Position numbers and translations under genes: made by a program. Shown here one piece after another: positions 20,892 through 31,806 of a DNA stretch of 64,000 nucleotides; within the stretch, counting starts at the first letter, position 1; each line of letters opens with the position of its first letter. Origin of the DNA: Pirellulales bacterium (lineage in GTDB: Bacteria; Planctomycetota; Planctomycetia; Pirellulales; Lacipirellulaceae); assembly GCA_019636345.1 (NCBI GenBank), contig JAHBXQ010000002.1:868001-932000 (forward strand). Direction: 5' to 3'. The notes beneath the pieces are model-generated. The model searched no databases. It saw nothing but the letters and a program-made list of their open reading frames with translations, and was not told the origin of the DNA.

Positions 20892-22904
20892 ATGTCTTCC
20901 GCAGCGCTGCCGATCGTCACGCCCGCCCAGGGGATTCCGCCCGCGGTCGTGGCCCTGGTCGGCAACCCCAACGCCGGCAAGACCTCGGTCTTCAACCGGC
21001 TGACCGGCCTGCGGGCCAAAACGGCGAACTTTCCCGGCACGACCGTCGAGCATCGTCGCGGCACCATCAAGCTGGGGGGAGATGCAGTCACGCTGATCGA
21101 CCTGCCCGGGCTGTACACGCTCGACGCCGTGACGCTCGACGAGCAGGTCGCCCGCGACGCCCTCGCCGGGACTCTGTCGGGGAGCCCCGCGCCGACCGCG
21201 GCGATGATCGTCATCGACGCCACGAACATCGAACGCTCGTTGTTCCTCGTTGCGCAAGTGCTGGAGTTGCGGGTCCCGACGCTCGTGGCGCTCAATATGA
21301 TCGACGACGCCCAGAAGCAGGGGGTGGCCGTCGATTGCGCAGAACTCGAGTCCCGCATTGGCTGCCGCGTCGTGCCGGTCTCGGCCCGCACGGGGCAGGG
21401 GTTCGCCGAGCTGACCGCCGCGCTCGCCGCGACGGTTTCCCAAGCGACGCGCGTCGAGACCCCGCCGGCCCTTGTCGAGTGCGGAGCGTGCAGCGGATGC
21501 CAGTACTCCGCCCGGTACGATTGGGCTCGTTCGGTTGCGTCCGCAACAGTTCGCGGCGAGCCGGTCGTCCGCAGCCGCCGGACCGAGGCGATCGACCGCG
21601 TGCTGACCCACCGGGTCGTGGGGCTGGCGTGCTTTGCGGGCGTGATGGCGCTGGTGTTCATGCTGATTTTTTGGGTCGCTCAGTTCCCGATGGAGTGGAT
21701 CGACGGCCTGTTCGCCGTGGCGAGCCAGACGGTCGGCCGCTGGCTCCCCGCAGGCGATCTGCAAAGCTTTCTGACCGACGGCGTCGTCGCCGGCTTGGGG
21801 GGAATGCTGATCTTCCTGCCGCAGATCTGCCTGCTGTTTTTCGCGCTGTCGCTGCTGGAGGATTCAGGCTACCTCGCCCGGGCCGCGTTCGTGATGGACC
21901 GGCTCATGCATCGGGTGGGGCTGCCCGGCAAGGCGTTCATTCCGCTGTTGTCGGCCCACGCGTGCGCGATTCCCGCAATTATGTCGACCCGCGTCATCGA
22001 GGACCGTCGCGATCGGCTGGCGACGATCATGGTCATCCCGCTCATGACCTGCTCGGCCCGCGTGCCGGTGTACGCGATGGTGCTGGCGCTGTTGTTTCCC
22101 AATCGTCCGGCGACGGCGTCGCTGGTGTTCGTGGGGGCGTACGCGCTGGGGATCGTCGCGGCGCTGGCGATGGCTTGGGTCTTCAAGCATTCGCTGCTCA
22201 AGGGACGTACCAAGCCGTTGGTGATCGAGCTGCCGAACTACCGGATGCCCTCGCTTCGCAACGCAGTGCTGACGACCTACGACCGGGCCTGCGCGTTCGT
22301 CAAGAACGCCGGGACGATCATCATGGCGATCGCGCTGGTGATGTGGGCCCTGGCCACGTACCCGAAGCTCGACGAGGCCGACGTGCCCGACCGGTACCAG
22401 TCGCAGATCGCCGCGGCCGAAGCGTCGGGCGACGACGGCGAGGCCGAACGGCTGCTGGCTCAGGCCCAGCTTGAACATTCGCTCGCCGGGCGCGTGGGTC
22501 GCGGGATCGAGCCGGCCTTCGCCCCGTTGGGCTTCGATTGGAAAATGAGCATCGGCGTGGTCAGCTCGTTCGCGGCCCGCGAGGTGATCGTTTCGACCCT
22601 GGCGGTCCTCTACGGCATTTCCGAGGACGAGGCGACCGACGACGAGACGGGGGCGTCGAAATCGCTGCTGGCCAAGCTGCAGTCGAGCCGCCGCTCGGAC
22701 GGCAGCCCCGTCTTCACTACCGCGACGTGCCTCAGCCTGCTGGTGTTCTACGTGCTGGCGATGCAATGCCTGCCGACCCAGGCGGTGACCCGCCGCGAGA
22801 CCGGCTCGTGGAAGTGGCCCCTGGTGCAGTTCGTCTCGATGACAGCCCTGGCGTACGTCGCCGCCCTGACGACCTATCAGGTCGCTGCCGCGGCGGGCCT
22901 GTAA
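20892..22904 (+). CDS. feoB: Ferrous iron transporter FeoB
   Basis: 670-residue Fe(II) transporter. N-terminal G domain: GNPNAGKTS (G1), NFPGTTVE (G2), DLPGLYTL (G3), NMID (G4). Membrane domain: Gate motifs SAHACAIPAIMSTR (about 355) and the second half VSSFAAREVIVSTLAVLYG, with about eight to ten helices. Between the G domain and the first helix lies an unusual C197-x2-C200-x2-C203 cluster (ECGACSGCQYSARYDWA), which could bind metal or an Fe-S cluster. FeoC is not seen. The stop codon lies inside a short tandem duplication. Confidence 0.95.
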   Translation: MSSAALPIVTPAQGIPPAVVALVGNPNAGKTSVFNRLTGLRAKTANFPGTTVEHRRGTIKLGGDAVTLIDLPGLYTLDAVTLDEQVARDALAGTLSGSPAPTAAMIVIDATNIERSLFLVAQVLELRVPTLVALNMIDDAQKQGVAVDCAELESRIGCRVVPVSARTGQGFAELTAALAATVSQATRVETPPALVECGACSGCQYSARYDWARSVASATVRGEPVVRSRRTEAIDRVLTHRVVGLACFAGVMALVFMLIFWVAQFPMEWIDGLFAVASQTVGRWLPAGDLQSFLTDGVVAGLGGMLIFLPQICLLFFALSLLEDSGYLARAAFVMDRLMHRVGLPGKAFIPLLSAHACAIPAIMSTRVIEDRRDRLATIMVIPLMTCSARVPVYAMVLALLFPNRPATASLVFVGAYALGIVAALAMAWVFKHSLLKGRTKPLVIELPNYRMPSLRNAVLTTYDRACAFVKNAGTIIMAIALVMWALATYPKLDEADVPDRYQSQIAAAEASGDDGEAERLLAQAQLEHSLAGRVGRGIEPAFAPLGFDWKMSIGVVSSFAAREVIVSTLAVLYGISEDEATDDETGASKSLLAKLQSSRRSDGSPVFTTATCLSLLVFYVLAMQCLPTQAVTRRETGSWKWPLVQFVSMTALAYVAALTTYQVAAAAGL

Positions 22905-29568: not shown

Positions 29569-29895
29569 TCACAAAAACCGAGACGCCGCCCCATCCTGAG
29601 CGGACGACGCTAGCCGCCGAAGAACCACGCGACGAGCCAGCAGAAACCAACCTCGCGCCATTCGCTCAGGGCCGATCAGTTTTTCGTAATGCCCGAGGAA
29701 GCGCAAGAGTTTCCGGGGTTGGTAAGCGAAGTCGCGGAGCGTGGGGGCGATTTCTTGGAACCCGGCGAGCCGCAAGAGCGAGAGGGCGGCGTTGCGGAAG
29801 GCGGCGAGGTCCTGCGGGGCTCAGCCGGTTCGTACGCGGCAGCGGTCTTCGCCGAGGGTGACGTCGCGGACCCAGTGGAGCCGGTTCTCGATGCC
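29569..29895 (-). pseudogene. ISAs1-like transposase C-terminal remnant with in-frame stop
   Basis: The translated remnant reads GIENRLHWVRDVTLGEDRCR then VRTG, a TGA stop at 29821-29823, then APQDLAAFRNAALSLLRLAG in the same frame, continuing to PRKLLRFLGHYEKL. This matches the C-terminal part of ISAs1-family DDE transposases (HWGIENxLHWVLDVTFxED...RxGNAPxNLAxLRxxALNLLR). The N-terminal DDE core is missing, and the stop interrupts the tail, so it is not functional. It is fused in frame, at a shared His-Trp, to the start of an integron-type integrase. Confidence 0.8.
29597..29620 (+). repeat. Solitary arm of the 28-bp inverted-repeat element
   Basis: 24 nt starting TGAGCGGACGACGCTAGC, one mismatch to the left arm at 28602-28625. 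It lies at the distal edge of the transposase remnant, about 1 kb from the complete element, so the element may mark one boundary of the inserted segment. Confidence 0.75.
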
Positions 29896-29991
29896 CCAGT
29901 GGACGTACGCCTGTTCGGTCCGCCAAGAGGAGTGCTTGGCCCGTAGGCCGAGCCGCATCCGGTCGAGCAACCTAGGCGGCTCGGGGTGCAT
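29896..29991 (-). pseudogene. Truncated integron-type tyrosine recombinase (N-terminal 32 codons)
   Basis: ATG at 29991 opens MHPEPPRLLDRMRLGLRAKH followed by SSWRTEQAYVHW. This is the start of the SAM-like DNA-binding domain of IntI/XerC-type recombinases (PxLLDxVRxxxRxxHYSxRTExAYVxWIRRFI). The homology stops at the HW where IRRFI should follow and the ISAs1 tail takes over. The catalytic domain is gone. It points away from two gene cassettes, the standard intI orientation. Confidence 0.7.
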
Positions 29992-30192
29992 TCGGTAATT
30001 GGCGGAGTTTGCGGCAAGGAATAGAATGAGGCCATGACGGCCGCTCCGTATGCCGAACAAGCGACACGGTACGCCTGGATACGTTCCCGCGGGCGACCTG
30101 TCAACCTGCATGCCGAAGGTCCTCTTCAATAGGCAGGGCTTACTGAAGAAGTTTCGGTCTAATAACAAGTTATCAGGACCAGGTGAACTTGC
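29992..30192 (+). other. Presumed attI region and leader of cassette 1
   Basis: 200 nt between the truncated integrase and the first cassette gene, where attI is expected. The recombination point is inferred at G^TT in GTTATCAGG (30169-30177), because CCTGATAAC at 31235-31243, the R'' box of the same cassette's attC, is its exact reverse complement. GC falls noticeably from here to about 31.7 kb. A promoter for the cassettes may lie in this stretch, but none is obvious. Confidence 0.6.
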
Positions 30193-31230
30193 ATGAAGTG
30201 GCAGAGAAAGAACCAAACCGCTAACCAAGGCGTCCTGTACGTTAAGGGAGTAGTGAACGCCCACGGTTCAATTTTCCGCCCGATCCATCAAGAAGACGAT
30301 GTGGGCGTCGATGGCCACATCGAACTTGTCGATGCCGAAAACGCCACCGGCAAGTTGGTTGCCGTGCAGATCAAATCTGGTGAATCCTACGTATCCGCCA
30401 GTGACGAACAATTTGTAGTCAACGTTTCACAAGAGCATCTTGACTATTGGGACTCGTACCTGATTCCCGTCATGATGGTGTGTTATTCGCCATCGCGAAA
30501 TCTAGCCGCGTGGACCCCGATTTTAGAGTACATTCGCAACGAAACGTATTGCGGCCGCACACCCGTCACTCAAATCAAGATTCCATTTTGTGACGTTTTT
30601 GATGCTGGCTCACTCAACGATGGCGTCGGCGGTCTGGCAAGCGCTGGTGCTGACCGAAAAATCTTGATTGAATGTGTCGATCATTGCTTGGCCGGTGATC
30701 ATCGCCAACGCCTACAAGGTCTACAAATCTTGTCTGACCACCCCGACTCACGCGACTCACGGACAACCGCTTTCATCGCACGGCGTCTGTTGTTTGACCA
30801 GAATGAGGTCGTCGCCGAAGCTGCGATCCGAACGCTGTCGTACCATGTTGGCCGTTTTCGTTGGTCACGGAATCCGAACAACAAAGACGAGAAACAACTG
30901 ATGGCATACGCGTCACAGTTGTGCCGCGATCTCACGATGGAAGAATGCACGCGTCTGATTGAGCGTCTAGATGAAGAATGGTTCGGTGGTCCACAGGCAC
31001 TTGGTGAACGAGTTTTCGACATATTGGTTTGTTGCGACGAGTCGGAACGCGTGATGGAAGATATGGCGGCAGACAAGTCACTTCCGATGCAACGACGAGT
31101 TAATGCGCTGTACATGCTGTACGGGTGCGACGATGGCGAATTGCTGATGGACGATGTGTTGCCCGACAGCGACGGCTATGGGGATGTCTTCCGAACGATG
31201 TTTCCGGATCACGGCAAAACCGAGTCATAA
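30193..31230 (+). CDS. Cassette 1 gene: DUF4365-like PD-(D/E)xK protein with helical C-terminal region
   Basis: 345 residues from ATG 30193. The N-terminal domain (about 1-150) carries DDVGVDGHIELVD (about 35-47) and KLVAVQIKSGESY (about 54-66). The D...(Q)xK pattern matches the DUF4365 branch of the PD-(D/E)xK nuclease-like fold (family knowledge: DYGIDGEIE...VQLKS). The rest (about 155-340) is mainly helical, with an ARRLLFDQNEVVAEAAIRTL segment suggestive of HEAT-like repeats. GC and codon use differ from the surrounding genes, and attC-type features delimit it (30170-31322), so it was acquired as an integron cassette. Role unknown; DUF4365 proteins are often found with mobile or defence genes. 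Confidence 0.72.
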   Translation: MKWQRKNQTANQGVLYVKGVVNAHGSIFRPIHQEDDVGVDGHIELVDAENATGKLVAVQIKSGESYVSASDEQFVVNVSQEHLDYWDSYLIPVMMVCYSPSRNLAAWTPILEYIRNETYCGRTPVTQIKIPFCDVFDAGSLNDGVGGLASAGADRKILIECVDHCLAGDHRQRLQGLQILSDHPDSRDSRTTAFIARRLLFDQNEVVAEAAIRTLSYHVGRFRWSRNPNNKDEKQLMAYASQLCRDLTMEECTRLIERLDEEWFGGPQALGERVFDILVCCDESERVMEDMAADKSLPMQRRVNALYMLYGCDDGELLMDDVLPDSDGYGDVFRTMFPDHGKTES

Positions 31231-31234
31231 AAGT

Positions 31235-31328
31235 CCTGATAACAATCGCATGCAACGGAGCCGGCGGTCGGGTCGGTTTAGAAATCAACACGTATCGCGC
31301 CGGCCCGCTGAACGTCGGTCCGTTAGAT
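31235..31328 (+). repeat. attC-like recombination site of cassette 1
   Basis: Imperfect palindrome beginning 5 nt after the cassette 1 stop. R'' box CCTGATAAC (31235-31243); R' box GTTAGAT (31322-31328), a perfect GTTRRRY. The inner stem pairs CGG-A-GCCGGCG with CGCCGGC-CCG, leaving one extrahelical A on the left arm, the kind of asymmetry integrases use to choose the strand. Length 94 nt, within the attC range. R'' is the exact complement of the cassette's own first bases. Confidence 0.75.
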
Positions 31329-31340
31329 AAAAGTGCAGCA

Positions 31341-31730
31341 GTGCGTAAATCCGAATTTGATCTTGTGCGAATCAAGGTCGTGCATCCGTACGCGTGGCTA
31401 TGGGAGCCATTAGAATCAGACGCATCGTTTGAGCTTCGTGCAATGTTTGGAGCGAAGGCGGTATATCTCAAGGGCAGATTGACGTTTTGTTTCATGGCCA
31501 AAGCTGAGCCGTGGCGAGGCGTGCTTGTGGCCACCGATCGGGACCATCACGCATCATTGATGGCTGATTTCCCGGCTCTATCGCCGCACCCAGTGCTGCG
31601 GAAATGGCTCTATCTCCCCGAGTCATCGGAGGCGTTTGAGCCGGTCGCCGAGGATCTTGTTCGGCTGGCTCGGCAGTATGATTCTCGAATTGGCGTCAAT
31701 CCTCGGCCAAAAAAGCGCAAACGCGGCTAA
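31341..31730 (+). CDS. Cassette 2 gene: uncharacterised 129-residue protein
   Basis: Starts at GTG 31341, 12 nt after the preceding R' box; an earlier start would lie inside the attC site. The protein begins VRKSEFDLVRIKVVHPYAWL and contains ELRAMFGAKAVYLKGRLTFC, EPWRGVLVATDRDHHASLMA and RKWLYLPESSEAFEPVAEDL; it ends in the basic tail PRPKKRKRG. I recall similar orphan proteins in planctomycetes, but no function. The AMFGAKAVYLKGRL block is faintly like TfoX_N/YjbR-type small domains. The stop codon lies inside the R'' box of the next attC, as is usual for compact cassettes. Confidence 0.65.
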   Translation: MRKSEFDLVRIKVVHPYAWLWEPLESDASFELRAMFGAKAVYLKGRLTFCFMAKAEPWRGVLVATDRDHHASLMADFPALSPHPVLRKWLYLPESSEAFEPVAEDLVRLARQYDSRIGVNPRPKKRKRG

Positions 31731-31806
31731 CAAGGGCGCTGCAGCCAACCCGCGCCTCGTCGGTCAGTTTGCAGGAGGGGTCGGCGGTCGTCCGGCGACG
31801 TTAGCG
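31725..31806 (+). repeat. attC-like recombination site of cassette 2
   Basis: R'' GGCTAAC (31725-31731) and R' GTTAGCG (31800-31806) pair at six of seven positions. The inner arms GCCAACCC and GGGTCGGC pair with one mismatch. The start CTAACAAGGGCGCTGCAGCC closely resembles common cassette attC left ends. It overlaps the cassette 2 stop. Length 82 nt. Confidence 0.65.

Follow-up and report, generated by a model that had tools for sequence, protein, structure and literature searches.

A degenerate integron in a Lacipirellulaceae genome with an attI site from a dispersed family

The window analyzed here, a stretch of 64,000 nucleotides of a Lacipirellulaceae genome, harbors at positions 29896–31806 a degenerate integron, i.e., an element of a known type. 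The locus is very probably explained as a whole by the decay of a Lacipirellulaceae integron whose attI site is one of a family of dispersed sites served in trans. A distributed integron typical of this family, with one integrase and up to ten scattered promoter–attI platforms, of which the window would retain a relic in an integrase-less species, is also considered probable. As far as we can tell, the family-wide arrangement of dispersed platforms represents a new variant of the integron.

Structure and Decay of the Locus

From left to right, the region comprises the C-terminus of an ISAs1-family transposase and the N-terminal part of intI (both on the minus strand), the attI site, and two low-G+C genes on the plus strand; with the transposase tail included, it spans 29770–31806. 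The integron layout (an integrase, attI, and two plus-strand genes) had been proposed in an earlier note made from the sequence alone, and it is retained here along with the low G+C content of the cassettes, over which the value drops from ~0.68 to 0.52. The features are as follows:

29770..29901, minus strand: ISAs1-family transposase remnant (C-terminus), forming an in-frame fusion with the intI remnant (NF033564, E = 5.3e-10)
29896..30035, minus strand: intI pseudogene retaining the first ~47 codons; it begins with the ATG at 30035, is frameshifted ahead of codon 19, reads intact over residues 19–47, and is truncated thereafter
30103..30172, plus strand: attI core, comprising ~67 nt before the exchange point and the GTT; 78–82% DNA identity to other loci
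30170..31322, plus strand: cassette 1, 1,153 bp; R'/R'' complementarity, attC model match at its end, homology break at its start
30193..31230, plus strand: gene of cassette 1, encoding 345 aa with DUF4365 at the N-terminus (PF14280, E = 5.5e-25)
31235..31328, plus strand: attC1, with R'' at 31235–31243 and R' at 31322–31328; models R2 and R3
31323..31800, plus strand: cassette 2, provisional limits; the start is the attC1 R' (GTTAGAT), the end is inferred from the weak attC2
31341..31730, plus strand: cassette 2 gene, ~129 aa from GTG; stop codon inside the R'' of attC2
31725..31806, plus strand: attC2, degenerate; left half (R'', L'') recognizable, right half poor

The product of the minus-strand open reading frame 29896–29982, EPPRLLDRMRLGLRAKHSSWRTEQAYVHW, shows 86% identity to residues 19–47 of the intact IntI of Lacipirellula limnantheis (tblastn; EPPRLLDRM...AYVHW in the window) and matches PRK15417 with E = 1.2e-4, in agreement with the claim that the N-terminus of an IntI-type recombinase is encoded here. 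The original start codon, ATG 30035 (MASFYSLPQ...), is in a frame different from that of residues 19–47; hence, the gene has undergone a frameshift besides its truncation. The frame of residues 19–47 continues into the ISAs1 transposase C-terminus, so the integrase said to be destroyed is in fact an intI/IS chimera with a frameshift. Since the gene next to attI, which in an integron should code for an integrase, is readable only at residues 19–47, frameshifted, and fused to ISAs1, the integron is termed degenerate.

The ISAs1 tail is ~44 residues long and matches the full-length ISAs1 present elsewhere in this genome (tblastx); in the search of the genome for ISAs1, the tail appeared as a lone C-terminal fragment (C2:897773–897904, one stop), and an intact ISAs1 element is absent at the window locus. 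A 64-bp stretch adjoining the ISAs1 remnant (29667–29730) recurs with 98% identity in the same genome (G000:C2:756835–756898). The Rfam scan of the region gave no relevant match. Among 147 relatives, none has either cassette gene conserved at this position, which speaks against the conserved synteny that the earlier note had named as a refutation of the integron. An empty site could not be displayed in the relatives: the close homologues of the two flanking chromosomal genes are far apart there or on separate contigs.

In the proposed course of events, the window IntI would have been an integron integrase, transcribed away from attI and inserting circular cassettes into attI at the G30169/T30170 junction, where the exchange cut presumably falls. 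Because circular cassettes would be inserted at G|TT, each cassette starts with the latter half of its own attC. Subsequently, the frameshift in intI and its truncation into an ISAs1-type remnant would have fixed the cassettes in place.

The window's genome yielded neither a match above the TIGR02249 cut-off nor one to NF011946 at E ≤ 1e-25; it keeps intI fragments at its attI loci and at C1:504944. It is possible but unlikely that an intact intI was missed in this 95.9%-complete assembly. With no intact intI detected in this genome, the array looks frozen, as had been suggested, the attI platforms of this genome look like relics, and recombination activity appears to have been lost in this species.

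The attI Site and Its Copies in the Same Genome

The presumed attI is supported by its homology to three other strong copies in the same genome (C4:317748–318027, C4:426353–426592, and C4:254869–254935; n = 4 with the window), along with a weak attI-like match at C3:21449–21488 inside a large attC array. Among these loci and those of relatives, the homology always stops at GTTA, i.e., at G|TT 30169/30170, and beyond it the own-genome loci carry unrelated cassettes. This break, common to the four loci, gives the attI its defined exchange point. The comparison with planctomycete attI regions advised in the earlier note thus revealed homologous sites in relatives that end in the same way. At the same time, the view of the locus as a single integron has to be given up: although there is an integron at this position, the genome has several attI platforms and attC arrays, of which this is one.

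Cassettes and attC Sites

The claim that each of the two genes ends in an attC holds for the first gene and in part for the second. The attC1 site was found with a covariance model (R2) built without the window sequence, from other loci only (alignment A1, where 13 of 18 pairs show compensatory changes on both sides). The model matched 31234–31329 with 41.8 bits (E = 3.5e-9), which was the only match in the 64 kb, nothing else scoring below E = 5; hence, the absence of an attC match, which would have spoken against the integron, was not observed. The model of a second attC class (R3, compensatory changes in 11 of 14 pairs) also recognized attC1 (26.5 bits, E = 8e-5), and cassette 1 accordingly ends in a foldable conserved attC, as expected of an integron. 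With filters off, attC2 scored 7.9 bits with R3 and 3.7 bits with R2. The left half of this site, CTAACAAGGGCGCTGCAGCCAACC, agrees with the consensus of class-2 attC sites, with one match in the window against 0.01 expected by chance, the pattern having been composed after attC2 had been seen.

The complementarity between the start of cassette 1 and the R'' box at its far end was also seen and extends over 11 nt from G30169 to the R'' ending at 31243 (GTTATCAGGAC/GTCCTGATAAC). It is the longest among the 881 GTT starts of the window, but the statement that it could arise only from the opening of a circular cassette was too strong, since five other starts reach 10 nt by chance; taken alone, the complementarity is suggestive. 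Across 24 attI loci of this genome and its relatives, complementarity of at least 8 nt between the cassette start and the first R'' was found in 16, versus 21 of 552 controls in which the starts were exchanged between loci. For cassette 2, the R'/R'' complementarity of 6 nt is not beyond chance. Of the two R' cores, GTTAGAT (cassette 2) fits GTTRRRY and GTTATCA (cassette 1) departs from RRRY, while GTTCNNN is found at many sites of the family. When single sequences were folded, neither window attC surpassed its shuffled versions at z < -2, whereas z = -2.9 and -4.9 were obtained for members of the family; folding by itself therefore does not settle the matter.

The protein of cassette 1 matches over residues 3–111 the PADLOC model REase-PNTD (E = 1e-22), and its N-terminal part is similar to nuclease domains that PADLOC links to Argonaute systems; by this resemblance, its DUF4365 domain is a putative PD-(D/E)xK-type nuclease domain. 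The protein of cassette 2 has no match in NCBIfam, Pfam, or PADLOC. The search for the cassettes in other genomes, advised in the earlier note, gave homologues of the cassette 2 gene (42–46% identity) on Paraburkholderia/Caballeronia replicons, the gene itself being missing from the 147 relatives; for the cassette 1 protein, the relatives display only a weak similarity at the level of DUF4365.

Dispersed attI Platforms in Lacipirellulaceae

An attI model built from 24 sites (R1, alignment A2, primary sequence only) matched 17 of the 43 genomes of the family, many of them several times. The ~67-nt core is thus multi-copy in Lacipirellulaceae, the sites sharing 80–94% identity. A degenerate attI pattern run over 84,980 species matched planctomycete records only; those with names belong to Lacipirellula, Aeoliella, and Bythopirellula, the remainder being Planctomycetota or Pirellulales MAGs. 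The core occurs in two classes: one adjoins intI or what remains of it, as in the window, and the other is without intI and has a predicted outward promoter of its own.

The arrangement is best seen in the finished chromosome (6,777,282 bp) of L. limnantheis I41 (G027), which has ten attI matches, all with E ≤ 8e-18, at 0.79, 1.03, 1.09, 3.02, 3.54, 4.62, 6.05, 6.09, 6.30, and 6.67 Mb. Its single intI adjoins the attI at 1.03 Mb and codes for a true integron integrase (TIGR02249, 438.7 bits at a cut-off of 265), and the search of the nine other sites with the L. limnantheis IntI (tblastn) retrieved no trace of intI. Nine of the ten platforms are followed by an attC, the tenth (L153) being devoid of an attC model match in the stretch examined; at three of the ten, the complementarity is below 8 nt or only a distant match exists. 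Such a combination of an intact cognate intI and many lone attI sites was encountered in I41 only. In another genome (G003, L155:12614–14150), the attI beside an intact intI is of a different kind (GTTAGCTGT, which is complementary to the R'' that follows); hence, two integron lineages coexist there.

At least eight of the nine lone sites of I41 share an upstream module of varying length (~100–190 nt), which is unlike the upstream region of the intI type. In six of them, it includes TTGAAG-N18-TAGAAT or a close variant with equal spacing, and TTGAGA-N18-TAGAAT occupies the corresponding place in related genomes. Scored from sequence only, -35/-10 pairs, mostly with an 18-nt spacer, reached at least 9 of 12 in 13 of 26 loci, many of them related copies, versus ~1% of 3,300 random places. 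The motif looks like a sigma70-like Pc promoter on each platform, and the intI-less class is accordingly predicted to have an outward promoter ~75–100 nt before the cassette.

Two cases of cassette sharing were revealed in I41. The first cassettes of the lone platforms at 6.09 and 6.67 Mb, 0.58 Mb apart, are identical in 512 of 512 bases; identity falls to 87% in the adjoining attI regions, and the sequences past the cassette are unrelated. The first cassette at 0.79 Mb and an inner cassette of the intI array (~1.036 Mb) share 900 bp at 99.56% identity, bounded on either side by G|TT. The simplest reading of these cases is recent movement between platforms by the single IntI, and most likely the one intact IntI of L. 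limnantheis serves all the platforms in trans, moving cassettes between them.

Alternative Explanations

Since recombination in trans is deduced from the shared cassettes, segmental duplication or gene conversion limited to the cassette may formally account for them instead. A different history would derive the lone attI sites from duplicated whole integrons, each served by its neighboring integrase, which later lost intI, with nothing happening in trans. The intI N-terminal remnants at three of the four attI loci in the window's genome would be in line with it, as would the loci L086 and L093, where the intI-type upstream region is retained with a broken intI. At the same time, this history does not sit well with the nine I41 sites lacking an intI trace, or with the different upstream module and its sigma70-like promoter at constant spacing in at least eight of them. 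Moreover, identical 512-bp cassettes are located amid diverged flanks; hence, a recombinase active after the separation of the sites is needed. Such duplication is therefore regarded as unlikely, and service of the dispersed platforms in trans is preferred.

The lone sites could also represent ordinary clusters of attC sites lacking integron integrases (CALINs), formed by off-target insertion of cassettes at attG and resembling attI by chance. Off-target insertion and attG are well established (PMC12901181, PMC10127599), and attC clusters without a strong attI core do exist in the window's genome (on C5, C8, and C12), but ~67 nt common to the sites at 80–94% identity plus a promoter module go far past the attG consensus, which makes this origin highly improbable. 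As to the window itself, one could imagine no integron at all, only two unrelated low-G+C genes with chance palindromes and a recombinase fragment. The chance occurrence of 10-nt complementarity and the unremarkable folding of both attC sites leave some room for such a coincidence, but the exact break of attI homology in four loci, the E-value of attC1, and the similarity of the intI remnant to a true IntI are together taken to refute it, so its probability is close to nil. The decayed integron with a dispersed attI remains the preferred explanation.

Relation to Known Systems and Significance

Integrons normally possess a single attI beside intI, and the Pc promoter expresses just the first few cassettes of one array. 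The locus shares with sedentary chromosomal integrons (intI, Pc, attI, and an attC array) the IntI family, the attI cut at G|TT, the R''/L''/L'/R' organization of attC, and the self-complementary cassette ends. It differs from them in that the window intI is destroyed and the attI of Lacipirellulaceae is dispersed in up to ten copies, i.e., ten in L. limnantheis with one intI and four in the window's genome, while attI has been described as immediately adjacent to intI (PMC9668308).

Clusters of attC without intI (CALINs), arising from decay or off-target insertion, have been described (PMC9668308, PMC8618304), the loss of intI being one of their proposed origins (PMC8618304). The window resembles a CALIN as a cassette array without a functional intI; against the two or more attC sites with no integrase nearby that define a CALIN, it has one certain and one weak attC. 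Unlike a CALIN, it retains a recognizable attI and an intI remnant, and the lone platforms of relatives carry a conserved promoter–attI module that is apparently still in use. The attG sites are divergent relative to attI, and the delta-attI cassettes contain short stretches of attI within mobile integron arrays (PMC12901181). They have in common with the present case the recombination of cassettes outside the canonical intI–attI locus, whereas here ~67 nt of conserved attI and a promoter are repeated over one chromosome. The ISAs1 family is represented by the transposase C-terminus fused to the intI remnant, only its tail being present at the window locus. No description of several, lone, or secondary attI sites or promoter–attI platforms per genome was found in the literature surveyed, which included few subscription journals and preprints.

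If the arrangement proposed is true, several cassettes would be first in line for expression simultaneously and could be moved between loci; with one integrase working many promoter–attI sites, the scaling of cassette expression and shuffling would be changed. Arrays lacking intI would then have a third origin besides decay and attG insertion. The idea of dispersed platforms is directly testable, as there is a cultured isolate with a finished chromosome. The window itself is a clear example of integron death through IS insertion and frameshift, with the captured genes left behind.

Other Loci of the Family

Further loci with attC sites were noted. The window's genome contains an array of at least eight attC sites (G000:C3:12730–21887; L162, L163), inside which lies the weak attI-like stretch 21449–21488, and small CALIN-like clusters of attC without a strong attI core at C5:422886–423563, C8:32202–33790, and C12:54282–55851 (L164–L166). 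At L018:4945–6635 (G000:C1:504944 onward), a fragment resembling IntI residues 225–294 (41% identity) is followed by two weak attC matches, probably a second, unrelated dead integron. In two other members of the family (L160:6472–9945 and L161:3530–5459), intI is co-directional with the attC array located downstream of it, and the attI core of the Lacipirellulaceae family was not found at these two loci.

Insertions of other kinds were observed as well. At another attI locus of the window's genome (L035:2243–2353), an insertion with inverted repeats, AGTGCTTTG...CAAAGCACT, splits the intI remnant, which represents a different mode of breakage. A 128-bp element with the ends GGGACAGGTCC...GGACCTGTCCC, a MITE- or REP-like insertion, is present in two copies of 94.5% identity (L019:8387–8503 and L035:5280–5395), located within an attC and within a cassette region.
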